Shown: in pieces, positions 2,624 through 62,519 of the stretch
Layout: each line of letters starts with the position of its first letter
Position numbering within the stretch: position 1 is the stretch's first letter
NCBI GenBank assembly: GCA_016790285.1
Contig: JAEUPJ010000022.1
Location: 62,001 to 126,000 of the forward strand
Direction: 5' to 3'
DNA: 64,000 nucleotides
DNA from: Roseateles sp.
Lineage (GTDB): Bacteria > Pseudomonadota > Gammaproteobacteria > Burkholderiales > Burkholderiaceae_C
Notes under the pieces: generated by a model
What the model saw: only the letters and a program-made list of their open reading frames with translations
Told to the model about the DNA's origin: nothing
Databases searched by the model: none
Position numbers and translations under genes: made by a program

Positions 2624-2643
2624 TGGCCACGCCGATGGACACA

Positions 2644-2722
2644 GCCACAGAGACACAGAGGCACAGAGACATGGGACTCTGTGAACCGGTGCGCCGTCTC
2701 TGTGCCTCTGTGTCTCTGTGGC
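2644..2722. repeat. Large perfect inverted repeat (27-bp arms) between prkA and yeaH
   Basis: The arm at 2644-2670 is the exact reverse complement of 2696-2722, with a 25-base loop. Each arm is built from reiterated CACAGAG-type units, for example GACACAGAGGCACAGAGAC on the left. Arrays of this kind recur in many GC-rich proteobacterial genomes as REP/MITE-like dispersed repeats. Transcribed, it would form a very stable hairpin after the prkA stop (2623) and before the yeaH start (2743). There is no T-run after it, so it is more likely an mRNA-stability or attenuation element, or a mobile-repeat insertion, than a classical terminator. Confidence 0.85.
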
Positions 2723-2742
2723 CTTGTTTGGATTGAGTCTGC

Positions 2743-4023
2743 ATGTCGCTCCAGCAAATCATCGACCGCCGGCTGTCGGGCAAGAACAAGTCCATCGGCA
2801 ACCGCGAGCGCTTCCTGCGCCGGCACAAGGACCAGATCCGCGAGGCCGTGAAGCGCGCGGTGGATGGCCGCGGCATCCGCGACATGGAGCGCGGCGAGGA
2901 CGTGCACATCCCGAAGAAGGACCTCTCCGAGCCCGTCTTCGGCCACGGCGACGGCGGCGTGCGCGAAGTGGTGCGCCCCGGCAACCAGGAGTACGTGAAG
3001 GGTGACCGCATCGCCAAGCCCAAGGGCGGGCAGGGCGGTGGAGGCGGCGGCGGGCAAGCGAGCGACCAGGGCGAGGGGGACGACGACTTCGTCTTCCACC
3101 TCACCAAGGAAGAGTTCATGCAGGTCTTCTTCGACGACCTGGCCCTGCCCAACCTCGCCCGCACCACGCTCGCCGACACGCCCGAATGGAAGAGCCAGCG
3201 CGCCGGCTTCGTCTCCGACGGCACGCCCACCAACCTGCACGTCGTGCGCTCCATGCGCGGGGCCTTGGGCCGGCGCATTGCGCTGGGCATGGACAAGCGG
3301 CGCGAGCTGCACGAGCTCGAAGCCCGCGAGCAGGAGCTGCTCAAGGAAGACCGGCCCGAAACCCCGCGCCTGCTCGCCGAAACGCGCGAGCGCATCAACC
3401 ACCTGCGGGCGCGCCTCGAGGCCATCCCCTTCCTCGACCCCATCGACCTGCGCTTTCGTGCCCGCGTGCGCATCCCGGTGCCCACCACGCGCGCCGTCAT
3501 GTTCTGCCTGATGGACGTGTCGGGCTCCATGGACGAAGGCCGCAAGGAACTCGCCAAGCGCTTCTTCATCCTGCTGTACCTGTTCCTGACGCGGCACTAC
3601 GAGAAGATCGACGTCGTCTTCATCCGCCACCACACGCAGGCGCAGGAGGTGGATGAGCAGAACTTCTTCCACGCGACGGAGACCGGCGGCACGGTCGTGT
3701 CCAGCGCACTGGTGCTGATGGAGCAGATCATCAAGGCGCGCTACTCGCCCACCGAGTGGAACATCTACGGCGCCCAGGCGAGCGACGGCGACAACTGGCA
3801 CCACGACAGCGGCCGCTGCCGCGAGCTGCTGGCCGACAAGATCCTGCCGCTGTGCCGCTACTTCGCCTACGTGCAGGTCGCCGAGCCCGAGCAGAACCTG
3901 TGGGAGGAGTACGAGAAGCTGTCCGAGGACGTGCCCCACTTCGCGATGCGCAAGGCGGTCGAGGCCTCGCAGATCTACCCGGTCTTCCGCGACCTGTTCA
4001 AGAAGGAGGGGGCTGCCGCATGA
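2743..4023 (+). CDS. yeaH: DUF444/UPF0229 protein with von Willebrand A-like domain (YeaH)
   Basis: The product has 426 residues, nearly the same as E. coli YeaH (427). The N-terminus is basic (MSLQQIIDRRLSGKNKSIGN). A Gly-rich linker near residues 90-105 precedes a vWA-like domain with the MIDAS signature FCLMDVSGSMDEG (DxSxS). YeaH is the conserved partner of the PrkA kinase; the vWA domain probably binds the kinase or a target, though the molecular role is not settled. The start is ATG 2743 after the large hairpin, with a poor ribosome-binding site, so translation may depend on mRNA structure. The stop overlaps the spoVR start in an ATGA. Confidence 0.93.
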   Translation: MSLQQIIDRRLSGKNKSIGNRERFLRRHKDQIREAVKRAVDGRGIRDMERGEDVHIPKKDLSEPVFGHGDGGVREVVRPGNQEYVKGDRIAKPKGGQGGGGGGGQASDQGEGDDDFVFHLTKEEFMQVFFDDLALPNLARTTLADTPEWKSQRAGFVSDGTPTNLHVVRSMRGALGRRIALGMDKRRELHELEAREQELLKEDRPETPRLLAETRERINHLRARLEAIPFLDPIDLRFRARVRIPVPTTRAVMFCLMDVSGSMDEGRKELAKRFFILLYLFLTRHYEKIDVVFIRHHTQAQEVDEQNFFHATETGGTVVSSALVLMEQIIKARYSPTEWNIYGAQASDGDNWHHDSGRCRELLADKILPLCRYFAYVQVAEPEQNLWEEYEKLSEDVPHFAMRKAVEASQIYPVFRDLFKKEGAAA

Positions 4024-5621
4024 GTTCCCTTGAAGATCGACGCCACCCCGAGCGCGTGGCCAAGCCACCGCCCGGCATGCCCGAGCGCCGCCAGCGCGAC
4101 CCGCTGCGCCAGATGCTGCCGCTGCTGCACCGGCCGAGCCAGCCCCTGCCCTCGCCCAACGACTGGACCTTCGAGCTCATCGAGGAGTACCACACCGTCA
4201 TCAAGCAGACGGCCGAGCGCTTCGGCCTGGACACCTACGCCAACCAGCTGGAGGTCATCACCGCCGAGCAGATGATGGATGCCTACGCGTCGGTCGGCAT
4301 GCCGGTGAACTACCGGCACTGGAGCTATGGCAAGGAATTCATCGCCACCGAGCGCAGCTACAAGCGCGGCCAGATGGGCCTGGCCTACGAAATCGTCATC
4401 AACTCCGACCCCTGCATCGCCTACCTCATGGAGGAGAACACGCTGGCGATGCAGGCCCTCGTCATCGCGCACGCCTGCTACGGGCATAACTCCTTCTTCA
4501 AGGGCAACTACCTGTTCCGCATGTGGACGGATGCATCGAGCATCATCGACTACCTCGTCTACGCCAAGAACTACGTGGCCGACTGCGAGGAGCGCTACGG
4601 GCTGGACGCCGTGGAGACCCTGCTGGACAGTTGCCACGCGCTGATGAACCACGGCGTGGACCGCTACCGCCGGCCGGCCAAGCTGTCGCTCGCCGAGGAG
4701 CGCGCGCGCCTGAAGGACCGCGAGCACCACGCGCAGATGCAGGTCAACGACCTCTGGCGCACGCTGCCCCGGCGGCCCGACCGGCCGGACGAGGCCGCCG
4801 AGAGCCGGCGCTTCCCCGAGGAGCCGCAGGAGAACCTGCTGTACTTCATCGAGAAGAACGCGCCGCTGCTGGAGCCCTGGCAGCGCGAGGTCGTGCGCAT
4901 CGTGCGCAAGATCGCGCAGTACTTCTACCCGCAGCGCCAGACCCAGGTCATGAACGAAGGCTGGGCCACGTTCTGGCACCACCGGCTGCTCAACCAGATG
5001 TACGACGACGGCTACCTGAGCGACGGCATGATGATCGAGTGGCTCAAGTCCCACACCAACGTCGTCTACCAGCACCCCGGCGCCAACCTCAACCCCTATG
5101 CGCTGGGCTTTGCGATGTACACCGACATCAAGCGCATCTGCGAGGCGCCGACCGACGAGGACCGCGCCTGGTTCCCCGACATCGCCGGCAGCGACTGGCT
5201 GCCCACGCTCGACCATGCCATGCGCAACTTCAAGGACGAGAGCTTCATCGGCCAGTACCTGAGCCCGAAGATCATGCGCGACTTCCGCCTCTTCGCCATC
5301 CTCGACGACGAGGCCAAGAGCGAGTACGAGATCTCCGCCATCCACGACGAAGGCGGCTACCGCCACCTGCGCCAGGCGCTGTCCCGCCAGTACGACCTCT
5401 CCGCGCGCGAGCCCAACATCCAGGTCTGGAACGTCAACCTGCGCGGCGACCGCTCCCTCACCTTGCGCCACGTGCAGCACCTCAACCGCCCGCTGCACGA
5501 CAGCGCGCAGGAAGTGCTGCGCCACGTCGGCCGCCTCTGGGGCTTTGCCGTGAACCTGGAAAGCGTCAACAGCCGCGGCGACGTGACGCGGCGCTGGAAC
5601 GTGCCGGCGCAGGCGCTCTGA
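4020..5621 (+). CDS. ycgB: SpoVR family protein (YcgB)
   Basis: The product has 533 residues, slightly longer than E. coli YcgB (510). SpoVR-family hallmarks include WTFELIEEYHTVIKQTAERF near the N-terminus, the YRHWSYGKEF segment, and His-rich segments such as AHACYGHNSFFKGNYLF and NEGWATFWHH. SpoVR proteins take part in spore cortex formation in Bacillus. In proteobacteria they are encoded with PrkA and YeaH and belong to the same stress network; the biochemical activity is unknown. The start ATG 4020 overlaps the yeaH stop, which supports translational coupling. Confidence 0.93.
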   Translation: MSSLEDRRHPERVAKPPPGMPERRQRDPLRQMLPLLHRPSQPLPSPNDWTFELIEEYHTVIKQTAERFGLDTYANQLEVITAEQMMDAYASVGMPVNYRHWSYGKEFIATERSYKRGQMGLAYEIVINSDPCIAYLMEENTLAMQALVIAHACYGHNSFFKGNYLFRMWTDASSIIDYLVYAKNYVADCEERYGLDAVETLLDSCHALMNHGVDRYRRPAKLSLAEERARLKDREHHAQMQVNDLWRTLPRRPDRPDEAAESRRFPEEPQENLLYFIEKNAPLLEPWQREVVRIVRKIAQYFYPQRQTQVMNEGWATFWHHRLLNQMYDDGYLSDGMMIEWLKSHTNVVYQHPGANLNPYALGFAMYTDIKRICEAPTDEDRAWFPDIAGSDWLPTLDHAMRNFKDESFIGQYLSPKIMRDFRLFAILDDEAKSEYEISAIHDEGGYRHLRQALSRQYDLSAREPNIQVWNVNLRGDRSLTLRHVQHLNRPLHDSAQEVLRHVGRLWGFAVNLESVNSRGDVTRRWNVPAQAL

Positions 5622-5631
5622 GGCGGCGGGC

Positions 5632-5946
5632 TCAGCTCGCCAGCTTCAACCCGACGATGCCCGCCACGATCAGCCCGAGGCTCACCAGGCGCCCCACCGT
5701 CGCAGGCTCTTCGAACAGCACCATGCCGAGTGCGGCCGTGCCCACCGCGCCCACGCCCACCCACACCGCGTAGGCCGTGCCCACGGGCAGCGTCTTCATG
5801 GCCACGCCCAGCAGCCCCACGCTGGCCACCATCGCCGCCACGGTGGCGACGGTCGGCACAGGCCGCGTGAAGCCTTCGGTGTACTTCAGGCCGATCGCCC
5901 AGCCCACTTCCAGCAGCCCCGCAACAACGAGCAACAGCCAAGCCAT
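5632..5946 (-). CDS. gdx: SMR family guanidinium exporter (Gdx/SugE type)
   Basis: This 104-residue protein has four membrane segments. Small multidrug resistance proteins work as antiparallel dimers that exchange protons for cationic substrates. The sequence fits the SugE/Gdx branch rather than Emr[19 protein letters not shown] contains the essential Glu13 and the GLKYTxGF signature, and [20 protein letters not shown] is the typical loop. Gdx proteins export guanidinium. Only 46 bases separate its start from the upstream VOC gene's stop, and I see no guanidine riboswitch there. It converges with spoVR, with 10 bases between the stops. Confidence 0.9.
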
Positions 5947-5992
5947 GGTTCCAGCACCTCGTGACGACAGGCCTGGGATTGTGCCGGCGGCC

Positions 5993-6370
5993 TCAGGCGT
6001 AGGTCCGGATCTCGATCAGGTGCTGGTTGGGGTCGTTGAAGTACAGCGTCGGCGCCGCGCCCCGCGCACCGACCTCACTGCCCGGCCCGGTGTTGCGGCC
6101 TACGGCGTCAAACGTCGGCCCGAAGCCGAGGCCCGCGGCGCGGACGCGCTCGAAGATGGCATCGAACTCCGCCGGCGTCACCGCAAACGCGTAGTGCTCC
6201 ATGCCGGGCGTTCCCCACGGCGCGAGCTGCAACTGGCAGCCCGGCCCGGCCTTGATGACGGTGAACGGCCCGTCCTGGCCGGCCCGCGTGAAACCCATCA
6301 GGTCGACGTAGAAGCGCACGCTGGCGTCCAGGTCGTTGACCTTGAGGATGAGGTGGTCGAGGGTGGCCAT
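5993..6370 (-). CDS. VOC family protein (glyoxalase/dioxygenase-like)
   Basis: The product has 125 residues from ATG 6370, which has an AGGAAC ribosome-binding site; a longer in-frame extension upstream is open but lacks support. The vicinal-oxygen-chelate fold is seen as two beta-alpha-beta-beta-beta repeats starting with [20 protein letters not shown] and ending with [16 protein letters not shown]. Metal-ligand candidates are the His in LDHLIL, the His in EHYAF and the Glu in HLIEIR. Family members are glyoxalases, fosfomycin-resistance enzymes, extradiol dioxygenases and binding proteins; the substrate here cannot be told. Confidence 0.85.
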
Positions 6371-6445
6371 GGGCGAGTTCCTGTCAGGGGACCCAGTGAA
6401 CCGCAGATGCCGCGTCACGGCAAGACCCGGCACACCGGGTCGAGC

Positions 6446-7153
6446 TCAGGGCAACTGGCCCTCCACCAGCGCACCCCGCCCGGGCGGCAGCAGGGCGAGT
6501 GCGCGCGACCCGTCCACCCGCCGCAGCCAGCCACGGTCGAGCATGGCCTGCAGCCAGGCCACGGCCAGCGGGCCGGCGAAGTGGTCGCGGCGCTCTGACC
6601 AGTCGACGCAGTCGTAGAGCGGGCGCTCGCCGGAGCGCATGCGCTCAGACGGGTGGTCAGGCATCAACTCCACAAGGGCCGCACGCCCGGCCTCGGTGAC
6701 GCCGTAGGCGCCTTGCGCCGTGGCCTGCACCCAGCCCCGCGCCAGCAGCATGTCGCGCCACTGCACGCCCAGCTCGCCGGCCAGGTGGCCGTAGCAGCTG
6801 CGGGCGTGGCGCAGGTCGCGCATGCCCGGGCGCTGCCAGCGGCGCAGGTCGGCCGCCGGCCCGCCGGCCTCGCGCGCATCGGCCACGCGCAGCAGCGCCT
6901 CCAGCGCGTGGGCCACGTCGCCATCGGCCAGGCCGAAGTAGCGGTGCCGCCCCTGGGGCCGCACACGCGCCAGGCCTTCGTCCACCAGCAGCTTGAGGTG
7001 GGCCGACATGGTCGGCGCCGTCACGCCGGCGTGCGCTGCCAACTCGCCAGCGGTGTACAGCCGCCCGTCCAGCAGCCGCGCCAGCACGCGGGCGCGCGTC
7101 GCGTCGGCAATCGCTGCGGCGATGCGGGCCAGGCGCGGCTCGGCAGTGGTCAT
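6446..7153 (-). CDS. ArsR-type winged-helix transcriptional regulator
   Basis: The product has 235 residues. Residues 1-90 form an ArsR-like winged helix: IADATRARVLARLLDG, then the recognition part AGVTAPTMSAHLKLLVDEGL, then the wing RPQGRHRYFGLAD. The C-terminal half contains RSCYGHLAGELGV, a segment shared by a longer subgroup of ArsR-family regulators of uncertain ligand. The start ATG 7153 overlaps the stop of the ABM gene (ATGA), making it the third gene of a NIPSNAP-ABM-regulator operon. It probably regulates that operon (inference). Confidence 0.85.
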   Translation of the reverse strand: MTTAEPRLARIAAAIADATRARVLARLLDGRLYTAGELAAHAGVTAPTMSAHLKLLVDEGLARVRPQGRHRYFGLADGDVAHALEALLRVADAREAGGPAADLRRWQRPGMRDLRHARSCYGHLAGELGVQWRDMLLARGWVQATAQGAYGVTEAGRAALVELMPDHPSERMRSGERPLYDCVDWSERRDHFAGPLAVAWLQAMLDRGWLRRVDGSRALALLPPGRGALVEGQLP

Positions 7154-7473
7154 GGCGGCACCTGCGCACGCTCGTGCAGGCCGTAGTCGCGCACGACATG
7201 GGCCACCCGCAGGCGGTAGTCGTGGAAGAGCCCGCCACGGCCCGCCGCCTGGGCGTCGCGGTGGCGGCCCATCTCGCGCCAGCCACGCACGGCGGCCTCG
7301 TCGCGCCAGAAAGAGAGCGACAGCAGCCGCGCCGGGTCCGCCAGGCTCTGGAAGCGCTCCACCGAGATGAAGCCCTCCATGCGCTCCAGCATCGGCTGGA
7401 GTGCCGCGGCATGGTCGACGTAGGCGGCGCGGCCCGCCTCGGTCGGCTGCACCTCGAAGATGACGGCGATCAT
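7150..7473 (-). CDS. Antibiotic biosynthesis monooxygenase (ABM) domain protein
   Basis: This is a single ABM domain of 107 residues (ferredoxin-like dimeric alpha+beta barrel). The visible pattern is [20 protein letters not shown], then [13 protein letters not shown], then [15 protein letters not shown] near the middle. Relatives include small cofactor-free monooxygenases and haem-degrading enzymes, but many are uncharacterised. Four-base overlaps with the NIPSNAP gene upstream and the ArsR gene downstream indicate one transcript. Confidence 0.85.
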
Positions 7474-7781
7474 GGCCGCACATCCTCGCAGAAGGTGCGC
7501 TGCTCGCGCCGGATGAAGCGCTGGGTGCGCGCGAACTCGAAGTTCGCCTGCGCCTCGGGATCGGTCCTGAGCCGCGCGCGGTAGGCCTCGTAGTCGGCCA
7601 GCGAGTCGAAGCCGACCAGCCCCCAGGCTTCGTCGTTGCTGCCCTCCCACGGCAGCCAGTAGCCCAGCAACCGCCCGCCCAGGCGGGGAATGATGCGGTG
7701 CCAGTGCTCGGCGTAGGTGCGGAAGGCTTCGCGCTGGAACGGGTCCAGCTCGTAGCGGATGAAACAGGTGATGGCGGGCAT
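7470..7781 (-). CDS. NIPSNAP family protein
   Basis: The product has 103 residues: [17 protein letters not shown] at the N-terminus, [11 protein letters not shown] in the middle and a C-terminal [24 protein letters not shown] proteins share the dimeric ferredoxin-like fold with ABM proteins; their bacterial function is largely unknown. The start is ATG 7781. It heads an operon with the ABM protein and the ArsR regulator, with stop/start overlaps. Two small proteins of the same fold next to each other may be able to form a heterodimer. Confidence 0.82.
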
Positions 7782-7860
7782 GCAGGGCTCCGTGGGAATG
7801 ACGGTGCCCACTGTGCGCCGCCGCCCCGGGGCAACGCTTAGGCGCGCAACGAAGCGTGCG

Positions 7861-8763
7861 TCACAGCGGCGCCACCGGGATGCACAGCTCGCAGTCGAAC
7901 AGGCCCGTCTTGAAGTCGAACTTCGACCCAGGCCCGTAGTGTTCGAAGCAGGGTCGCGCATCCAGCTGCAGCCCGCTGCCGGGCAGCCAGCGGCCCATGA
8001 GCTGGCGCCAGGCGGCGCCGATCTCGGCGGCCGTGCCCTCGAACTTCAGCGCGGCGTAGCGGCCGCCCGGTAGCTCCGTGACCAGCGCCGCGCCGTTGGG
8101 CACCCAGTCGTCGGGCACGGCCACGCCGCAGTCGTAGCGGCATTGCTCGGGCGGCACGAGGCTGGGGTCGTCGTGGCTGATGCCGAAGCGCGCCACGGCA
8201 CCCAGGTTCTGCGTGGCCAGCCACGGGTTGAAGGTCTCGGCCCAGAAGCGGCCCAGGGCCGGGCCGTAAGGGCCCTGGTAGCGCACATAGCCCATGCGCA
8301 CGGGCGGGCGGTCGATGAGGTGGACGATCACGGGATGGCCTTCGTCGGGGTTGCGGAAGGCCTCATCGTCGCGAGCCGCCGCCTGCTGGACCTGATGCAG
8401 ATTGCTGTCGGCATGATCCAGATTGCGCCACTGGCTGGGCGACAGACCGAAGTGCGCCTTGAACGCCCGCGAGAAGGCCTCGGCCGAGCCATAGCCCACG
8501 CCCAGCGCAATGCTCAGCACGGTGGACGCCGGCTCGCCCCGCAGGCGCTGCGCACCGCGCTCCAGCCGCCGGCGCGCGAGGTAGCCGCCCAGCGTCTGGC
8601 CCGTCCAGGCCAGGAACAGCCGGTGGAAGTGAAACGGCGAGAAGTGCGCGACGCCGGCCAGCGCCTGCAGGTCCAGCGGCGCGTCCAGGTGACGGTCGAT
8701 GTAGGCCTGCACGCGGTGCATGCGGGCCTCGTACTGGCGCCGGCTCGCGTTGGGGGTATTCAT
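7861..8763 (-). CDS. AraC family regulator with GyrI-like ligand-binding domain
   Basis: The product has 300 residues. An N-terminal AraC double helix-turn-helix (about residues 5-105) includes [39 protein letters not shown] and [21 protein letters not shown] GyrI/Rob-like effector domain follows (about 130-300: [15 protein letters not shown], then [12 protein letters not shown]). This architecture matches Rob/SoxS-like sensors of hydrophobic or drug-like ligands. The start ATG 8763 overlaps the stop of the beta-lactamase gene, so the two are co-transcribed and probably co-regulated. Confidence 0.9.
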
Positions 8764-9620
8764 GACCAGGCGCGCACCAGCAGGCCCAGGGCTTGCGCCG
8801 TCACGGCCGACAGCGTGTCCGTGGCGGCCGGCGAGTCCGACTGCAGCGCCACGACCACCCAGGGCGCGCGGCCGCCCGGCGGGAACACCAGCCCCACGTC
8901 GTTGACCGCGCCGCGCGCGCCGGTGCCGGTCTTGTCCAGCACGCGCCAGCCGGCAGGCACGCCGGCGTGGAGCCGCTTCAGGCCGGTGGTGGAGGCCTGC
9001 ATGTCGGCCCACAGCCGCGCCTGGCTGGCGCGCGTGAGGCCCGGGCCGAGCAGCAGGTGCTGCAGCGTGCGGGCGAAGGCGCGCGGCGTGCTCGTGTCGC
9101 GCGGGTCACCCGGCGCGTTCTCGTTGAGTTCGGTCTCCCAACGGTCCAGTCGCGTGACGTCGTCGCCCTGCGCGCGCAACCAGGCGGTGAAGCCCGCCGG
9201 GGTGTCGCAGCAGCGGCGCAGCAGCAGGTTGGCGCACGGGTTGTCGCTCTCGACGAGGATGCCTCGCACCAGGTCGGCCAGCGTGGCCCGGCCCTGCGGC
9301 AGCAGGCGGTCGAAGGCCGGCGAATGGCTGACACGGTCCGACGGCTGCAGCACGACCTCGTCATCCCAGCGCCAGCGCTGCGCGTCCACGCCCTGCGCCA
9401 CGCGCGCGGCGAGCAGCGCCTTGAAGGTGGAGGCCGTGGCGAAGCGCTCGTCCGCCCGGTGGGCCCAGGTGCGGCCGGTGCCGGTGTCCAGCGCGAAGAA
9501 GCCCAACCGGCCGCCCACGCGGCGCTCCAGCGCCAGCAGGTCCGCCCGGGTGGCGTCGGGGGCAGCGAGGGACAGGGCAGGCAAGGCTGCCGGCAGGGCG
9601 AGGAGGGCACGTCGATGCAT
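8760..9620 (-). CDS. bla: Class A beta-lactamase
   Basis: The product has 286 residues with an N-terminal hydrophobic signal (RRALLALPAALPALSLAA). All class A serine beta-lactamase motifs are present in order: S64-T-F-K67 (Ambler S70-x-x-K73), S125-D-N127 (SDN loop), E162-T-E-L-N166 (omega loop, Ambler E166-N170) and K230-T-G232. It should hydrolyse beta-lactam rings in the periplasm. No cysteine precedes the active serine, so the disulfide typical of class A carbapenemases is not indicated. It sits in native-looking DNA beside an AraC-GyrI regulator rather than on a mobile element, suggesting an intrinsic chromosomal enzyme. The substrate range cannot be predicted. Confidence 0.93.
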   Translation of the reverse strand: MHRRALLALPAALPALSLAAPDATRADLLALERRVGGRLGFFALDTGTGRTWAHRADERFATASTFKALLAARVAQGVDAQRWRWDDEVVLQPSDRVSHSPAFDRLLPQGRATLADLVRGILVESDNPCANLLLRRCCDTPAGFTAWLRAQGDDVTRLDRWETELNENAPGDPRDTSTPRAFARTLQHLLLGPGLTRASQARLWADMQASTTGLKRLHAGVPAGWRVLDKTGTGARGAVNDVGLVFPPGGRAPWVVVALQSDSPAATDTLSAVTAQALGLLVRAWS

Positions 9621-9708
9621 GCCGGGATTCTGGTGCAGCCACGCCTGCCCCGCGGTCGTGCACCGCCACCCCGTGCTGGTGCATCGGTTCGGCGGAGCCG
9701 TCTAAAAA

Positions 9709-9724
9709 CTGACCAACCCGTCAG
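9709..9724. promoter_or_regulatory. Operator-like inverted repeat upstream of the TonB receptor
   Basis: CTGAC-CAACCC-GTCAG lies in the 208-base divergent region between the beta-lactamase and the TonB receptor. The TGACC-N-GTCA pattern resembles TetR-family operators. No regulator is known, and it could serve either gene. Confidence 0.35.
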
Positions 9725-9828
9725 ACTCGCGCAACACCTGGCCGCCTGACGCCCGGCACGGCGCAGCCGCGTCCGCACAATCGCCGCCGGCCCTGCAGTT
9801 GGGGCCGATTTTTTTGGAGTCGCTGTCG

Positions 9829-12030
9829 ATGTACGCCCCCCGTTTGACCCTGCTGACCCTGGCGCTTGCCGCCGCCCTGCCGGCCCTCGCCCAGGAAGCC
9901 GCCAAGGACCGCAGCCAGCTCGATACCGTCGTCATCACGGCCGAGCGCCGTGCCGAGAACATCCAGGACGTGCCCAATGCCGTCAGCAAGATCAGCGGCG
10001 ACAAGCTCGACGTGCTCGCCTCCGGCGGCCAGGACGTGCGCTTCCTGTCGGGCCGGGTGCCGAGCCTGAACATCGAGTCGAGCTTCGGCCGCGCCTTCCC
10101 GCGCTTTTACCTGCGTGGCTACGGCAACACCGACTTCCGCCTGAACGCCTCGCAGCCGGTCAGCGTCATCGTCGACGACGTGATCCAGGAGAACCCCATC
10201 CTGAAGGGCTTCCCCATCTTCGACACCGCCGCGGTGGAAGTCGTCGCCGGCCCGCAGGGCACGCTGTTCGGCCGCAACACGCCGGCCGGCGTCGTCAAGT
10301 TCGACTCCGTCAAGCCCAGCCAGAAGCAGGACGGCTACGCCAGCGTCACGGTCGGCAACTACGGCACCTTGAACCTCGAAGGCGCGGCCAACCTGCCGCT
10401 GTCGGGCGACTGGGCCGCACGCATCTCCGCGCAGAGCCAGCGCCGCAGCGACTGGGTGGACAACACCGCCGCTGGGGCCGCCACGCCCAAGACCGAGGGC
10501 TACCGCGACACCGCCGTGCGCGCGCAAGTGCTGTACGAGCCGCACAAGCAGTTCAGCGCCCTGGCCAACCTGCACGTGCGTGACCTCGACGGCAGCCCGC
10601 GCCTGTTCCGCGCCAACGCCATCAAGCGCGGCACCAACGACCTGGCCGACGGCTTCAGCACCGACGCCGTCGCCTTCAACGGCGTCAACGAGCAGACCCT
10701 CAAGCAGACCGGCGGCAGCCTGCGCCTGAAGTGGTCGCTGCCCGAGCTCAACATCTACTCGATCACGGGCTACGAGCACGTGAAGCCGCTGTCCCGCGGC
10801 GACATCGACGGCGGCGTGCCTGGCCAGGCCGGCGTGCCCTTCCAGTCCGAGACCGGCAGCGCCATGAACGGCCACCGCCAGCTCACGCAGGAAGTGCGCC
10901 TGGAGTCCAACACCAGCGGCCCGCTGAGCTGGCAGGCCGGCGTGTACCTCTTCGACGAGAAGTACACGATCGACAACATCACCTACAACACGACGACCCA
11001 CGCCGACATCGACCACATCTACACCGCGCAGACCAACAAGGCCTGGGCGGCGTTCGGTTCGGTCAACTACGCCGTCAGCAACGAGCTCAAGCTGCGCGCC
11101 GGCCTGCGCTACACCAAGGACAAGAAGGACCTCTCCACCACCCACGCGGGCACGGGTCTCTTCAACACCTCGGCCGGCACCACGGCCAGCACGGACGACG
11201 GCAAGTGGAGCGGCGACCTGTCGGCCACCTACAAGCTCGACAACACCACCAACCTCTACGCCCGCTACGCCAACGGCTTCCGCGCCTCGTCGATGCAGAA
11301 CGCCTCGGCCTTCGCCGGCCAGTCGCAGGCCGGCCCGGAGAGCGTCAACTCCTACGAGATCGGTTTCAAGAGCGAACTGCTCAAGCGCACGCTGCGCCTG
11401 TCGGGCTCGGTCTTCACCTACACCGTCAAGGACCTGCAGCTCACCGCCGTGGGCGGCAGCAGCAACGCCACCCGCCTGCTCAACGCCAAGAAGGCCACGG
11501 GCAACGGCGCCGAACTCAACCTCGAGGCCCTCATCACGCCGGACTTCCTGGTGACCTTCGGCGGCTCGCTGAACAACACCAAGATCAAGGACGCGGCGCT
11601 CGGCGTGCCCCCGGGCGGCTCGCTGCGTGTCGGCACCGCCTTCCCGACGGTCAAGGACCCGATCGTCAACGGCAACGCGCTGGTGGACGGCAACGCCCTG
11701 CCCAACGCGCCAAAGTGGACCGCCAACCTGACCGCCCGCTACAGCATCCCGCTGGCCAGCGGCGACGAGGTCTACGTCTACACCGACTGGGCCTACCGCT
11801 CCAAGGTCAACTTCTTCCTGTACGAGGCCACCGAGTTCACCGGCAAGGCCCTCACCGAAGGCGGCCTGCGCGTGGGTTACCTGTGGGGCAATGGCAAGTA
11901 CGAAGCCGCCGGCTTCGTGCGCAACATCACCAACCAGGTCCGCGTGACCGGCGCCATCGACTTCAACAACCTGACCGGCTTCATCAACGAGCCGCGCAGC
12001 TACGGCGTGCAGTTCAAGGCGATGTTCTGA
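9829..12030 (+). CDS. TonB-dependent outer membrane receptor
   Basis: The product has 733 residues. It has a signal peptide (MYAPRLTLLTLALAAALPALAQ), a TonB-box-like LDTVVITAERR at about residues 32-42, a plug domain (IQDVPNAVSKISGDKL through AVEVVAGPQGTLFGRNTPAG) and a 22-strand type beta barrel ending in the outer-membrane terminal aromatic VQFKAMF. It imports a ligand with TonB/ExbBD energy. The substrate is unclear; iron complexes, cobalamin, sugars or polyphenols are all taken up by relatives. The start ATG 9829 has a TTGGAGT ribosome site; an in-frame TTG at 9799 is less likely. No FecIR-like regulators or siderophore genes adjoin it. Confidence 0.92.
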   Translation: MYAPRLTLLTLALAAALPALAQEAAKDRSQLDTVVITAERRAENIQDVPNAVSKISGDKLDVLASGGQDVRFLSGRVPSLNIESSFGRAFPRFYLRGYGNTDFRLNASQPVSVIVDDVIQENPILKGFPIFDTAAVEVVAGPQGTLFGRNTPAGVVKFDSVKPSQKQDGYASVTVGNYGTLNLEGAANLPLSGDWAARISAQSQRRSDWVDNTAAGAATPKTEGYRDTAVRAQVLYEPHKQFSALANLHVRDLDGSPRLFRANAIKRGTNDLADGFSTDAVAFNGVNEQTLKQTGGSLRLKWSLPELNIYSITGYEHVKPLSRGDIDGGVPGQAGVPFQSETGSAMNGHRQLTQEVRLESNTSGPLSWQAGVYLFDEKYTIDNITYNTTTHADIDHIYTAQTNKAWAAFGSVNYAVSNELKLRAGLRYTKDKKDLSTTHAGTGLFNTSAGTTASTDDGKWSGDLSATYKLDNTTNLYARYANGFRASSMQNASAFAGQSQAGPESVNSYEIGFKSELLKRTLRLSGSVFTYTVKDLQLTAVGGSSNATRLLNAKKATGNGAELNLEALITPDFLVTFGGSLNNTKIKDAALGVPPGGSLRVGTAFPTVKDPIVNGNALVDGNALPNAPKWTANLTARYSIPLASGDEVYVYTDWAYRSKVNFFLYEATEFTGKALTEGGLRVGYLWGNGKYEAAGFVRNITNQVRVTGAIDFNNLTGFINEPRSYGVQFKAMF

Positions 12031-18373: not shown

Positions 18374-19420
18374 ATGCAAGCCGTCTTCAACGCCACCCAA
18401 GCCGCCACCCGCCCCGCCCTCGTCCAGTTCGACCTGGACATGGACGCCGCCCCGGCGCCCATCAGCGCCCACGAGCGAACCGGCCTGGCCCTGGGCCGCG
18501 ACTACGCGCTGCACGGCATCACGCCACCCATCGCCCACCTCTACCCCCAGTCGCCCCTGCAGCGCGGCTGGCTGGCGGCCCGCGGCCGCCCGGTGCGCAC
18601 GCCGGCCAGCCCGCAGGTCGAGCTCTGGCTGGCGCTGCGCACCCACGCCTGGGCCCGCGGCCGCAGCTTCGAGGACATCCAGCTCACGCCGCACCACCTC
18701 GCCCAACTCGACACCACCCACTGCCCCATCACCCGCGAACTGCTGGGTGACGACAACCGCAGCATCGACCGCGTGCGCGACGACGCCGGCTATGCCGCGG
18801 GCAACCTCGCCGTCATGAGCCACCGCGCCAACCAGGCCAAGGGCAGCCGCGGCCACCAGGCGCTGGTGGACATGGCCGCCAGCTGCGCCGCCGGCCCCAT
18901 CACGCGCATTGGAGGCCTGACCGAAGCCGACTGGCAACGCGCAGCCGTCCTCACGAGCTTTGTCACGCCGCTGAGCCACGAGCAGGCCGCGCAGATTCCG
19001 CTGCGCGTGCTGCCGCCCAACCGGCTGCGCCTGTTCAACCCCATCCAGGCCCTGCAGGCCTTCGTGACGCGCCAGCTCGCCACGCCCGGCTGGAGCGCCC
19101 GGCTGAGCCGCCTGGAGGCCCTGCTGCCCACCGACGCCCTGCGGACCGACTTCAACCGCTTCCTGCTGGCCCTCGCCCCGCGCGTGCTGGCCGCCGCCGA
19201 ACTGCAGGAGCCGCATGAAATCCGCTGGGCGCTGGAAGACGCCTGGGCCCTGCCGCTGGTGCAAAAGCGCTGGGCGCGTTTCGCGCTGCAGCTGGCGCCC
19301 GAGCAGGCCGAAGCCCTGGTGGAGCGCGCCGCGGCCAAGAAGCTCAGCCCCGTGCATGTGCAACGCCACGACGACGGCACGGACGGCTGGGCGCTGGCCA
19401 CCGGCGGCTACGCGGCCTGA
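18374..19420 (+). CDS. Unknown protein with an HNH-nuclease-like core
   Basis: The product has 348 residues with no signal peptide. Residues 117-157 contain C117-P-I-T, then S130-I-D-R133, GY (139-140), GN (143-144) and SHRAN (149-153) with K156. The order C-P..SxDR..GY..GN..S.RAN..K matches the core of phage-type HNH endonucleases, although the first catalytic His is replaced by the SxDR form seen in one branch. The rest (about 160-348) is helical and unassigned. The start ATG 18374 has AGGAG at 18363-18367. It is divergent from the WYL regulator, with 113 bases between the starts. Function unknown; a nuclease or nucleic-acid-binding role is inferred. Confidence 0.6.
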   Translation: MQAVFNATQAATRPALVQFDLDMDAAPAPISAHERTGLALGRDYALHGITPPIAHLYPQSPLQRGWLAARGRPVRTPASPQVELWLALRTHAWARGRSFEDIQLTPHHLAQLDTTHCPITRELLGDDNRSIDRVRDDAGYAAGNLAVMSHRANQAKGSRGHQALVDMAASCAAGPITRIGGLTEADWQRAAVLTSFVTPLSHEQAAQIPLRVLPPNRLRLFNPIQALQAFVTRQLATPGWSARLSRLEALLPTDALRTDFNRFLLALAPRVLAAAELQEPHEIRWALEDAWALPLVQKRWARFALQLAPEQAEALVERAAAKKLSPVHVQRHDDGTDGWALATGGYAA

Positions 19421-19436
19421 CCCGCATTCGCGGGGG
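19421..19436 (+). promoter_or_regulatory. G-rich motif upstream of PEP-CTERM gene 2
   Basis: CCCGCATTCGCGGGGG begins right after the preceding stop codon and ends 66 bases before the start at 19503. It is the second copy of the motif shared with 12226-12240 and 24285-24300. It can also form a small CCCGC/GCGGG hairpin. Confidence 0.35.
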
Positions 19437-19502
19437 ATGTCATGGCGTGGTCACAGCCCGTCGCCAGAGTCGCGGCCGATCCCGTCAACCCTGGTAAAGA
19501 CC

Positions 19503-20255
19503 ATGACCAAGACCCTGCTGTCCCTCGCCCTGGCCGCTGCGCTGCCGGCCCACGCCGCCCTCACGTCGGCGGGCGACCTCACCTTCACGTCCTTCAACGC
19601 CGATGAAGACGGCTTCGCCATGGTGGCCCTGGCCGACATCGCGCCCAACACCAAGGTCTACTTCACCGACAACGAGTGGAGCGGCACCGCCTTCAACGGT
19701 GGCGAGAGCTACTCCTCGTGGCTGTCGGGCGCCGGCACCATCGCGGCCGGCACCGTGATCCGCTTCAGCAAGGTCGACAGCGCCACGCTGCTGGCCGCGT
19801 CGGTCGGCAGCTTCGCCCGCGAGACCGTCTCGGGCAGCACCAACTGGGGCATCAGCACCTCCGAAGACACGATCTACGCCTACCTCGGCACCAGCGCCAC
19901 GGCCCCGACGCTCTTCCTGAGCGCCGTCACCACGGGCACCTTCGGCACGGCCACCGCCGGCTCCCTGGCCAACACCGGCCTGAGCACCGGCAACGGCGCC
20001 ATCAAGCTGAGCACGGGCTCCGACTACGCCGAGTACAACGGCGTGCGCGCCGGCCAGGCCAGCTTTGCCGACTACAAGCCCCTCGTCAGCAACGTGGCCA
20101 ACTGGAATGACCTCGGCACCAGCGCCGACGGCACCAACCTCGCGCCCAACACCACGGCGTTTGCCGTGACGGCCGTGCCCGAGCCGCAAACCTACGCGCT
20201 GATGCTCAGCGGCCTGATGGCCGTGGGCTTCATGGCCCGCCGCCGCCGCGGCTGA
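19503..20255 (+). CDS. PEP-CTERM sorting domain protein 2
   Basis: The product has 250 residues with a signal peptide (TKTLLSLALAAALPAHA). It ends in AVPEPQTYALMLSGLMAVG then FMARRRRG: the exosortase tag. The body begins LTFTSFNADEDGFAMVALAD and has YFTDNEWSGTAFNGGES, a module also seen at the N-terminus of large secreted nuclease or calcium-binding proteins (lamin-tail-like, by resemblance). It is a likely surface or matrix protein. A terminator follows at 20301-20325. Confidence 0.87.
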   Translation: MTKTLLSLALAAALPAHAALTSAGDLTFTSFNADEDGFAMVALADIAPNTKVYFTDNEWSGTAFNGGESYSSWLSGAGTIAAGTVIRFSKVDSATLLAASVGSFARETVSGSTNWGISTSEDTIYAYLGTSATAPTLFLSAVTTGTFGTATAGSLANTGLSTGNGAIKLSTGSDYAEYNGVRAGQASFADYKPLVSNVANWNDLGTSADGTNLAPNTTAFAVTAVPEPQTYALMLSGLMAVGFMARRRRG

Positions 20256-24220: not shown

Positions 24221-24241
24221 GCGAGCTTGCCGCCATCGACC

Positions 24242-24263
24242 GGGGCCTGCGGGCCCCTTTTTC
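24242..24263 (+). terminator. Rho-independent terminator after ompW-like gene
   Basis: GGGGCC-TGCG-GGCCCC followed by TTTTTCTT, 22 bases after the OmpW-like stop. It ends the esterase-OmpW operon. Confidence 0.85.
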
Positions 24264-24284
24264 TTGGCTCGGCGGCACAAAACC

Positions 24285-24300
24285 CCCTCATCCGCGGGGG
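24285..24300 (+). promoter_or_regulatory. G-rich motif upstream of PEP-CTERM gene 3
   Basis: CCCTCATCCGCGGGGG ends 61 bases before the start at 24362. It is the third copy of the motif seen before the other PEP-CTERM genes (12226-12240 and 19421-19436). Confidence 0.35.
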
Positions 24301-24361
24301 TGGAGCGCACCGGGGCAGGCCTGAAGATCACTCTTCTGCCGTTGCTGTGAGGAAGTTCACG

Positions 24362-24937
24362 ATGTCCGCCCTGTCCAAGTCCGTTCTCGCTGCTGGCCTG
24401 CTGGGCCTGGCCGTGGCCGCCCAGGCCACGCCGACCGTGACCGTCGTGGCCAACACCGCCGGCGTGACCAATGCGCTGGCCGCCGCCGACGCCTTCGTGC
24501 CGGCCAACAGCACGCCGTGGCAGACGACCTCGGCCTGGTGGACCGGCAACGCCGAGACCATCACCTTCCAGCTCGACCAGGCCTACTTCCTGTCCTCGGC
24601 CGTCATCACGGCCGACTGGAACGACGTCTACCGCTTCTCGGCCTCGACCGACGGTGTCAACTTCACGCAGCTCTTCACCGTCACCGGCTTGGCCGATCAG
24701 CCGGTCAATGCCAACGTGACCTTCGGCCAGGTCACCATGCCGGTGAGCTTTGCGCCCACGGCCCTGGCCTACAGCTACATCCGTGTGCAGGCCATCGCGG
24801 GTGACGGCAGCAATGCCATCGGCGAGGTGAGCTTCAGCGGCGTGGCCGCCCCGGTGCCCGAACCCGGCACGCTGGCCTTCATGGCCGCGGGTGTCGGCAT
24901 CCTCGGCTTCGTCGCCCGCCGCCGCCGCCGCGGCTGA
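24362..24937 (+). CDS. PEP-CTERM sorting domain protein 3
   Basis: The product has 191 residues with a signal peptide (SKSVLAAGLLGLAVAAQA). The tag APVPEPGTLAFMAAGVGILG followed by FVARRRRRG is a typical exosortase signal. The body (ETITFQLDQAYFLSSAVITA, then DVYRFSASTDGVNFTQLF) resembles a discoidin-like beta-sandwich that binds surfaces or glycans. It is a likely extracellular matrix or surface protein. Confidence 0.88.
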   Translation: MSALSKSVLAAGLLGLAVAAQATPTVTVVANTAGVTNALAAADAFVPANSTPWQTTSAWWTGNAETITFQLDQAYFLSSAVITADWNDVYRFSASTDGVNFTQLFTVTGLADQPVNANVTFGQVTMPVSFAPTALAYSYIRVQAIAGDGSNAIGEVSFSGVAAPVPEPGTLAFMAAGVGILGFVARRRRRG

Positions 24938-25792: not shown

Positions 25793-26419
25793 TCAGTCGA
25801 TGCCCACGACCTTGTGCATCTGCACCGACAGCCGCCACTGCGGATGCTGCATGCAGTAGTCCACCGCGGCCTGGGTGTGTTCGCGGCGCAGCACCGAGTC
25901 CATCGGTTGCAGGAAGAAGTGCTGGAAATCCAGGCCGGCGAAGCGTTCCGGGCGGGCCAGCGGCTGCGGGTAGACGAGCTTGAGCTCGTGGCCCGCGGTC
26001 AGCACGAGTGGGGCGTCAGCCTTGGGGCTCACGCAGATCCAGTCCAGCCCGGGCGGCGCGGGCTGCGTGCCGTTGGTCTCCACCGCCACCTCGAAGCCGC
26101 GTGCGTGCAGGGCGTCGATGAGGGGCGTGTCCAGCTGCAGCAGCGGCTCGCCGCCCGTGCAGACGACGTAGGGCCTGCCACCGCCGGGCCAGGCCCGCGC
26201 GATGGTGTCGGCGAGCTCGTCGGCCGTGGCGAACTTGCCGCCGCCCTGGCCGTCGGTGCCGACGAAGTCGGTGTCGCAGAAGGTGCACACGGCGGTGGCG
26301 CGGTCCGGTTCGCGGCCGCTCCACAGGTTGCAGCCGGCGAAACGGCAGAACACCGCCGCACGGCCCGCCTGCGCGCCTTCACCCTGCAAGGTGTAGAAGA
26401 GTTCCTTGACGCTGTACAT
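25793..26419 (-). CDS. queE: 7-carboxy-7-deazaguanine synthase QueE
   Basis: The product has 208 residues. This radical-SAM enzyme makes the 7-deazaguanine core of queuosine from 6-carboxytetrahydropterin. The cluster ligands are C30-x14-C45-x2-C48, the atypical CX14CX2C spacing typical of QueE. ELFYTLQGEGAQAGR at the N-terminus, the CTGGEPLLQLD loop and VAVETNGTQPAPPGLDWICV are also diagnostic. It follows the triple QueD gene on the same strand, 87 bases apart, so the two steps of the pathway are adjacent. Confidence 0.95.
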   Translation of the reverse strand: MYSVKELFYTLQGEGAQAGRAAVFCRFAGCNLWSGREPDRATAVCTFCDTDFVGTDGQGGGKFATADELADTIARAWPGGGRPYVVCTGGEPLLQLDTPLIDALHARGFEVAVETNGTQPAPPGLDWICVSPKADAPLVLTAGHELKLVYPQPLARPERFAGLDFQHFFLQPMDSVLRREHTQAAVDYCMQHPQWRLSVQMHKVVGID

Positions 26420-26506: not shown

Positions 26507-27607
26507 TCATACGGGAATCAGTTCCTCGGCATCGGCGCGGCTCACGATGGCGCCGCAGCCGCGCGTCTCGTACAGGTCCACGCGGTCGATCTGCGGCAGC
26601 ACCGTGCCGCCCTCGCCAAGCACCCACGCGGCGATGCTCGCTGCGTCGCCGTCGGGCAGGCCGGCGATCTCGTAGAGCGGGTGGTGGTCCAGCCGCTTGA
26701 AGATCGGGTTGAAGAGCTGCTTGACGTCGCCGAAGTCCACCGTCCAGCCCATGACGGCGTCCAGCGGCGCGGCCAGGTGCAGGCGCAGCGTGAAGGTGTG
26801 GCCATGGATGCCGGCCAGCGGGTGGCCGTCTGGCGCGTGGCGCAGGCGAACGGCGCTGTCCAGCGTCATCTCCTTCCAGATGCGGTAGTGCTGGCCGTTG
26901 AAGTTGGCGCCGCTGGAGCCGGTCTCGTAGACGGTCACCCAGCTCAGCTCGGGCAGCGCCGGCTTCAGGCGCTGCCACAGCCAGGCGGAGATGTGCTCGC
27001 TGGTGGGGTTGGCCAGGCCCGGGATGTCGTTCAGGCAGCGGTAGTTCAGCTCGAAATGCAGCGGCGCCCAGACCTCGTCGAGGTGGTCGTAGTCGATGGC
27101 GAGATCGCGCTCGCCCAGGTCGGCGTTCGCGTGCAGGATGACTTCGAAGCCGTGCCCATGCATGCGCCCGCACTGGTGGCCGGCGGGCACGTTGGGCAGC
27201 TGGTGCGCGGCCTGGAAGCGGTAGCGCCGCCACACGTGGGCGTGGCCGGCGCCGTCCAGGTCCACGCCGCTGTGCGTGGTGCTCTGCACGCCCACCTGCA
27301 CGATGCCCGGCACGTCGGTGGCCAGCCGGCTGCGCACCCAGCGCGCCAGGTTCTCGTCGGTGGGCTCGCCGAGGTGGTCGTTCAGCAGCGCGTGGTCCAG
27401 CGGTGCGACGGTGTCGGCCATGCGCGAGCGCAGCGCCTGCACCTCACCGCCCTCGAAAGCCGCCCAGCCGGCCGGCAGCGCCGAGCGCACGGTGGCGAAA
27501 TAGCTGTGGCCATGCAGGCCGTGGCTGCGGTGGGAGGCGGGCAGGGCAGGGATGCGGCAGGCCGATTCGAAGCCCGCCGAGGCGCAGTGCAGGATGTGCA
27601 GGGACAT
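26507..27607 (-). CDS. queD: Three-domain 6-carboxytetrahydropterin synthase (tandem QueD fusion)
   Basis: The product has 366 residues, three times the length of E. coli QueD (121). Three copies of the 6-pyruvoyltetrahydropterin synthase fold follow one another, each with the zinc HGH: H32-G-H34, H150-G-H152 and H268-G-H270. Compared with E. coli QueD as I recall it, domain 1 (1-120) has C17 and S28 in place of the first zinc His and catalytic Cys, keeps D71-H72 and lacks the pterin Glu. Domain 2 (121-240) keeps H135, C146 and E228 but has N188-Y189 instead of Asp-His. Domain 3 (241-366) has V253 for the zinc His and no Cys, but keeps D307-H308 and E347. QueD converts dihydroneopterin triphosphate to 6-carboxytetrahydropterin, with active sites between subunits. 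The fusion may rebuild one site from complementary parts. It lies beside queE. Confidence 0.9.
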   Translation of the reverse strand: MSLHILHCASAGFESACRIPALPASHRSHGLHGHSYFATVRSALPAGWAAFEGGEVQALRSRMADTVAPLDHALLNDHLGEPTDENLARWVRSRLATDVPGIVQVGVQSTTHSGVDLDGAGHAHVWRRYRFQAAHQLPNVPAGHQCGRMHGHGFEVILHANADLGERDLAIDYDHLDEVWAPLHFELNYRCLNDIPGLANPTSEHISAWLWQRLKPALPELSWVTVYETGSSGANFNGQHYRIWKEMTLDSAVRLRHAPDGHPLAGIHGHTFTLRLHLAAPLDAVMGWTVDFGDVKQLFNPIFKRLDHHPLYEIAGLPDGDAASIAAWVLGEGGTVLPQIDRVDLYETRGCGAIVSRADAEELIPV

Positions 27608-27644: not shown

Positions 27645-28835
27645 CTACATCTTTGCCACCAGGCGGCTGACCTGCTCGGCCTTGCCGTCCATCTGCCGCA
27701 CCGTGCCCTCGATCTGCTTGTGCGCGGCCAGCATCTCCTTGAGCGGGTCGGCCACCGCCTTGTCCTTGACGTAGTCCCGCGTCTCGTGGGCGGCCTGGCG
27801 CAGGATATTGCCCAGGTTGGTGAGCCCCGCGTCGATCATCAGCCGCTCGTCGTCGAGCTTGCGCACCTGCTGGCTGAGCTTGCGCTTGTCCTCCTCGCTG
27901 AGCCGCGCGGTGTCCTGCGCAATGATCAGCACCAGCTGCTTGGTCACGTCGGCGATGCTGGCGGCCAGGTTGCTCGCACCCTGCGGGCCGTCCCAGAACA
28001 TCGTCACCTTGGTCTCGAACGCATCCATCACCTGCTGGCGCGTCTTGACCGCCTGGGTGACGAGCTTCTCGGCCTGCTGGATCTCCACCGACAGCTCCGT
28101 GTACCTGTCGCGCAGCTCGCCTTCCCTGCGGCCGGCGCGCACCAGGGCCTCGCGCATGGCGCGCATCTCCTTGTCGTACTTGCGCGTCTTGAGCTTGGCC
28201 TCGAGGTCCATGACGGGGTCGGCCAGCCGGGTGATGAGCGGGGCCTCGCGGTTGACGAACTTCTCCAGCCCCTCGAAGCCCTCCTTCAACTGCGCGAGCG
28301 CCCGGCCGAGGTCGTCACGGCCGCCATGCGCGCTGCTCATCGCGTTGCGGGCCTTGGCACGCTCGCCCAGGTAGCGCGCGCTGTCGGAGAGTTCACCCAT
28401 CTCCTTGATGGCCGCGTCGATGCGGCCGTCCATGCGCTTGAGCTGGTCGATCACCCGCGGCTGGGCCGCCTGGATCTGCTTCCAGGTCTGGGCGTCGGCG
28501 ATCGGGTCGGCTTCCGCGGCCACGAGCTTCCTGCGGTAGACCTCCACCAGCGCCAGGTACTTGTCGCAACCGAGCTTGGACTCCTTGGCCAGCGTGCCGC
28601 AGCTTTGCCAGGCCCGCGTGAGCGCCACCTTCAACCGCTCGCAGGCCTCGCCGGCCACCTGCAGCTCCACCACGTCGTCCATCGCTTCCGGGTCCCGCGG
28701 GCAGTAGCGCACCCAATCCTCCAGCGCCTTGCCCACGCCGGAGTCCTTCATCGTGACGCCCCGGTGCGCGTCCCACCACTTCTTCGTGAAGGCGGGCCCG
28801 CCCAACTTGATCGCGTCCAGGTCCTTCTTGTCCAT
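27645..28835 (-). CDS. Hypothetical helical coiled-coil protein
   Basis: The product has 396 residues, no signal peptide or membrane segment, and is very rich in charged residues. It is almost entirely helical with long heptad-like stretches (for example EELRDRYTELSVEIQQAEKL-like segments near residue 245 and DTARLSEEDKRKLSQQVRKL near 310). Cysteines occur only in the first quarter. I do not recognise the family. Its codon use matches its neighbours. It ends 37 bases before the QueD fusion start, so the two could be co-transcribed, but no functional link is evident. A cytoplasmic scaffold or cargo-like role is only a guess. Confidence 0.7.
   Translation of the reverse strand: MDKKDLDAIKLGGPAFTKKWWDAHRGVTMKDSGVGKALEDWVRYCPRDPEAMDDVVELQVAGEACERLKVALTRAWQSCGTLAKESKLGCDKYLALVEVYRRKLVAAEADPIADAQTWKQIQAAQPRVIDQLKRMDGRIDAAIKEMGELSDSARYLGERAKARNAMSSAHGGRDDLGRALAQLKEGFEGLEKFVNREAPLITRLADPVMDLEAKLKTRKYDKEMRAMREALVRAGRREGELRDRYTELSVEIQQAEKLVTQAVKTRQQVMDAFETKVTMFWDGPQGASNLAASIADVTKQLVLIIAQDTARLSEEDKRKLSQQVRKLDDERLMIDAGLTNLGNILRQAAHETRDYVKDKAVADPLKEMLAAHKQIEGTVRQMDGKAEQVSRLVAKM

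Positions 28836-60288: not shown

Positions 60289-62519
<2,231 letters not shown>

Follow-up and report, generated by a model that had tools for sequence, protein, structure and literature searches.

A trimodular QueD of Roseateles sp. with a probable composite active site between its second and third domains

Results and discussion

Domain architecture and proposed mechanism

The 64,000-nucleotide stretch of contig JAEUPJ010000022.1 of Roseateles sp. analysed here (positions 62,001 to 126,000, forward strand; hereafter the window) contains a gene for a 366-residue protein that is very probably a trimodular QueD (6-carboxytetrahydropterin synthase) with one composite active site between its second and third domains (D2 and D3). 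In the mechanism proposed, a canonical QueD would have been triplicated, so that a single chain took the place of the three subunits of the QueD/PTPS ring, each domain's final strand leading into the initial strand of the domain after it. The three formerly identical interfaces would then have diverged, leaving an active site at the D2-D3 interface only. D2 would bind zinc via His135, His150 and His152 and supply the catalytic Cys146 and the pterin-side Glu228/Glu204; D3 would supply Asp307-His308 plus the preceding helix; the first domain (D1) would be a scaffold closing the ring. The product would pass to QueE and QueC, yielding preQ0 and queuosine. The features concerned are the following.

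26507..27607, minus strand: trimodular queD gene, stop codon included (366 amino acids)
27251..27586, minus strand: domain 1, residues 8-119, without zinc His, Cys and Glu; Asp71-His72 present, not conserved
26894..27238, minus strand: domain 2, residues 124-238, with zinc His135/150/152, Cys146, Glu204 and Glu228; Asn188-Tyr189 replaces Asp-His
27152..27205, minus strand: domain 2 zinc/Cys motif of the CxxxHGH type, residues 135-152
26537..26884, minus strand: domain 3, residues 242-357, having lost the zinc His and Cys while retaining Asp307-His308
26684..26749, minus strand: domain 3 donor block, residues 287-308 (G-W..D..F.P....D-H); holds the QueD-conserved residues that D3, unlike D2, has retained

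The open reading frame listing gives the gene an ATG start; an overlapping plus-strand frame of 388 codons looks like its antisense shadow. As the initial annotation had stated from the sequence, the protein carries three QueD/PTPS domains. Indeed, a Pfam search returned three PTPS stretches (1.6e-53), PTPS being the sole matching family, and the NCBIfam QueD equivalog TIGR03367 was matched with 151.7 bits, above its cut-off of 89.25. The distribution of active-site residues over the domains was also as annotated. D1 has Cys17 at the zinc His position, no Cys before HGH and Ser109 at the Glu position, with Asp71-His72 present. In D2, His135, Cys146, His150, His152 and Glu228 are present and the Asp-His position is occupied by Asn188-Tyr189. 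D3 has Val253 at the zinc His position and no Cys, with Asp307-His308 and Glu347 present. HGH occurs in all three domains; CxxxHGH, described as the PTPS-I motif in PMC5041015, and the three zinc His are complete in D2 only.

Conservation of the residue split

The same residue split recurs in the sequences of relatives belonging to many bacterial groups. Among 73 triple proteins found by whole-protein similarity, His135, His150, His152, Cys146, Glu204 and Glu228 of D2 and Asp307 and His308 of D3 were each present in 73/73; Asp71 and His72 of D1 were present in 67 and 41, and Asp at position 188 and His at position 189 of D2 in 15 and 17, respectively. A named set of 80 loci was fetched by the patterns H.CG..HGH (D2) or W..D.GDVK (D3, around residues 288-296); 79 of these were added to the 73 triples, one being dropped for an undetermined residue, to give 150 distinct proteins, all of which possessed the six D2 residues together as well as the D3 Asp-His. 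Both remained complete when these proteins were thinned to under 97, 80 and 60% identity (136, 81 and 22 proteins, respectively); the D1 Asp-His was intact in 50/136, 16/81 and 4/22, and that of D2 in 30/136, 24/81 and 5/22. The first zinc His was found in D1 or D3 of none of these thinned triples. Eleven further triples, drawn from the phylum at large, agreed with the split (Asp-His in D1 of 1/11 and in D2 of 0/11).

In total, 161 triple proteins were collected, of which 146 were left after thinning to less than 97% identity. Since the D2 set and the D3 Asp-His were each held in 146/146 of them, the conservation of these two parts of the split is, at the level of sequence, far beyond chance. 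The Asp-His of D1 was intact in only 51/146, and this pair is therefore, as far as conservation tells, not part of the conserved site. Hence, the split that the initial annotation described for the window protein extends to the other triples in its D2 and D3 parts but not in its D1 part.

Two faces of the proposed site

To compare the domains with canonical enzymes, 27 single-domain QueDs were used to define 51 conserved columns, which were then followed in the three domains of 89 triples of less than 80% identity, a column being counted as kept at 95% or more. Nineteen columns were kept in D2 and not in D3 (the zinc loop, Cys, PTSE, Glu228, Gly238 and others), seven in D3 and not in D2 (Gly287, Trp288, Asp291, Phe299, Pro301, Asp307 and His308), seven in both, and two only in D1. 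The D2-only columns flank the seven D3-only columns on both sides and none falls among them. Such a pattern would be expected of one pocket whose zinc, Cys and Glu came from D2 and whose Asp-His came from D3. In rat PTPS, zinc, Cys42 and Glu133 come from one subunit and His89 from another. The D2/D3 pattern agrees with this arrangement and with the phrase 'intersubunit catalytic triad motif' in the title of a 1995 paper by Burgisser et al.

The composite site with zinc and Cys from D2, as initially proposed, is supported by this conservation, which also favours domain 3 where the initial annotation had left the source of the Asp-His as 'domain 1 or 3'. Since the pair was intact in 146/146 triples in D3, versus 51/146 in D1 and 30/146 in D2, the likely donor is D3. 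A D1 donor is very improbable, even though the window protein retains Asp71-His72, Asp71 was kept in 67 of the 73 triples mentioned above, and D1, preceding D2, would border it in the ring too. Indeed, the His of D1 is often Tyr and, on a tree of 114 triples scored for an intact Asp-His, the pair changed at least six times in D1 and at least 14 times in D2, compared with zero changes in D3. Were D1 the donor, the partner of the live zinc site would be decaying and the invariant Asp-His of D3 would adjoin a dead one. If D3 is the donor, both halves are kept at the live interface and have been, or are being, lost at every dead one.

Predicted structure and assembly

The AlphaFold model of the chain was confident across its whole length (predicted local distance difference test, pLDDT, 91; predicted template modelling score, pTM, 0.90). 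In it, the last strand of one domain and the first of the next are joined by 4-5 residues (117/123 and 236/241). In a structure comparison, the D1-D2 and D2-D3 pairs each superposed on whole uricase chains; neighbouring domains are thus predicted to adopt the packing seen in uricase's tandem T-folds. A ring closed within one chain is inferred. Alternatively, the D2-D3 site could be formed between two chains, by domain exchange or chain pairing, the fusion not being a self-contained ring. Conservation alone cannot separate contacts within a chain from those between chains, and PMC7546909 locates PTPS sites where three neighbouring monomers of the head-to-head hexamer meet. This alternative is nonetheless improbable, given the confident single-chain model, its short linkers and the uricase-like packing of consecutive domains. 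Two single-chain rings may themselves associate in the head-to-head manner of PTPS trimers, giving two sites per holoenzyme. The initial expectation of one site where a QueD hexamer has six would then apply to the chain and become two for the assembly.

Genome context and function

Following queD on the same strand is a gene whose product is taken as QueE from its family and neighbourhood.

25793..26419, minus strand: queE, 208 amino acids, radical S-adenosylmethionine protein

Catalytic activity as QueD, converting dihydroneopterin triphosphate into carboxytetrahydropterin, is presumed from the sequence features above. The protein might also be a PTPS paralogue with another role than that of the cell's QueD, as its TIGR00039 score of 104 lies below the cut-off of 125.5 and only one of its three active-site copies remains. 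Several findings make this extremely improbable, among which the TIGR03367 score and the intact CxxxHGH motif of D2. Firstly, queE neighbours the triple in most loci examined, being found at most 300 bases away in 70 of the 80 named loci listed; similarly, 41 of 48 loci taken with flanks of about 1.5 kb contained a QueE match, one of them weak. Secondly, a PTPS search of the strain's own genome (107 contigs, 95% complete) hit the 26507-27607 gene three times and no other PTPS gene; a second canonical queD, which the initial annotation had named as a case against its proposal, was thus not encountered. In the 71 triple-bearing genomes, the PTPS matches listed (expect values to about 1e-10) lie inside the triples as well, except in G619, G626 and G240. 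Lastly, genome G160 contains a second triple, 61% identical, in an island together with QueC, DpdA, two DpdB, DpdC and DpdD.

L207 (G160:C55:14500-34000), 1552-11090: Dpd island with the second triple

Dpd is a 7-deazaguanine DNA modification system that uses preQ0. The genome of the window also contained tgt and queC above their respective cut-offs, and a QueC match (expect value 9.7e-40 or better) occurred in 53/53 triple-bearing genomes of the same family. Because of these contexts (the queE neighbourhood, QueC and the Dpd island), the triples would seem to serve the supply of carboxytetrahydropterin and preQ0.

Elsewhere in the window, a 396-residue protein encoded upstream of queD (27645-28835, minus strand) had no Pfam match over the cut-off. 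Two predicted proteins (19215-20255 and 24227-24937, both plus strand) end in a C-terminal VPEP...RRRR tail, which we take to be like a PEP-CTERM sorting signal.

Distribution and origin

Near-full-length relatives numbered 55 in 53 of 299 genomes of the same family, and a triple occurred in 18 further genomes among 369 genomes of the class. From 398 genomes of the phylum, 14 triples were obtained, of which three had already been counted and 11 came from two families outside the class; one of the latter was identical to that of a named Magnetococcales bin. Other strong matches were one-domain matches, mostly to D2 (41 of the 60 genomes with a match in the class and 88 of 102 in the phylum). 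In named genomes, some relative was encoded in 584 candidates and at least 80 triple loci were present, including those of Roseateles, Pelomonas, Paucibacter, Inhella, Ideonella, Ramlibacter, Polaromonas, Methylotetracoccus, Thiocapsa, Marichromatium, Thiocystis, Competibacter and Thiothrix, the Magnetococcales bin and a Nitrospinaceae bin. Judging by the near relatives, the window would come from a genome like those of Roseateles or Pelomonas.

An unrooted domain tree of 20 diverse triples and 27 singles (117 columns) placed D1, D2, D3 and the singles each on one side of a branch, with Shimodaira-Hasegawa-like approximate likelihood ratio test (SH-aLRT) values of 100, 69, 99 and 75, respectively; 50 of the 81 inner branches were open and several D1 rows formed long branches. 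The tree is consistent with a single triplication before spread.

Two genomes of one genus, G032 (L090, 1049-1291) and G240 (L088, 1528-1779), contained lone stretches matching only approximately residues 280-366 of the triple, apparently the remnants of a decayed copy; G240 additionally carries a full-length triple. Two other genomes of the same family, G129 (L091) and G197 (L092), gave no triple match and encode a single-domain PTPS beside a QueE that is 65-66% identical to the window QueE. This PTPS has no Cys before HGH and retains the zinc His and Asp-His, and may be a Cys-less QueD-like protein.

Weighing of the proposed composite site

Several points weigh against a trimodular QueD with a single D2-D3 site and D1 as a scaffold. 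Besides the TIGR00039 score, the reach of the D3 Asp-His to the D2 Cys within one chain is a presumed one. The patterns used for the named set favour the residues within them, positions 307/308, 135, 204 and 228 lying outside, and the D2 Asp-His is still intact in the 30 triples mentioned above. As to context, queE was not found at 1e-10 in the flanking DNA of the remaining 10 of the 80 named loci, seven of the 48 loci with flanks of about 1.5 kb had no QueE match, and co-occurrence of QueC with the triple is weak by itself, as QueC exceeded its cut-off in 241/299 family genomes. In addition, Glu347 of D3 was retained in 111/136 triples, more than a dead site needs, and HGH in D1 of 136/136 and D3 of 130/136, in neither case with the first zinc His, which a scaffold leaves unexplained.

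The retained HGH of D1 and D3 (window 27506-27514 and 26798-26806, respectively) and Glu347 may be structural or serve another ligand. A rather unlikely extension is that the vacated interfaces are alive: D1 and D3 would bind a metal or pterin at a second site without catalytic function, which would either regulate the catalytic site or act as a docking point for QueE. The residues named for such a site are His32, His34 and Asp84 of D1, which are invariant, His26 of D1 (137/146), and Glu347 and HGH of D3. If so, triplication would have given asymmetry and control, not mere scaffolding.

Relation to known systems

Canonical QueD/PTPS-I (E. coli QueD, PDB 4NTK/4NTM/4NTN) has a single domain per chain, each domain carrying the full set of residues (the Asp-His was present in 27/27 single-domain QueDs), and its sites arise by symmetry in a homohexamer of two trimers, whereas the window protein has three domains per chain. 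The difference is one of architecture, not of chemistry, and the window protein is accordingly classed as a trimodular variant rather than a plain QueD. Bimodular QueF (V. cholerae, E. coli) resembles it in having tandem T-folds and in acting in the same pathway with the same fold; according to PMC5372742, the catalytic Cys persists in one module and is lost from the other, and the active site is formed where the two modules of a chain meet. However, QueF has two modules, is a reductase, forms no closed ring and shares the fold without being a QueD. With three PTPS domains and PTPS as sole Pfam family, the window protein does not belong to the QueF family, and QueF serves as an analogy. Uricase (urate oxidase) likewise consists of two fused T-folds, its ligand sitting at the interface of two protomers (PMC7792999), but it has no metal cofactor, performs other chemistry and has its sites between chains. 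Fused PTPS domains also occur in a dual-domain bacterial PTPS, but two of them, for tetrahydrobiopterin synthesis; judging by its title, such a protein is reportedly the subject of Kong et al. 2006. No paper on a three-domain QueD was recognised in the literature searched.

Conclusions

As QueD/PTPS sites lie between identical subunits, one half cannot be changed without altering the other half elsewhere. In the trimodular QueD the site halves would be separated, and the conservation map assigns residues to the zinc side or the Asp-His side. The inter-subunit triad would become addressable by single-domain mutants in one chain, with no averaging over six sites. Bimodular QueF already exemplifies covalent fusion accompanied by complementary loss; in QueD this would extend to three domains. 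The trimodular QueD may also offer pterin enzymes a scaffold with one chain and one site.
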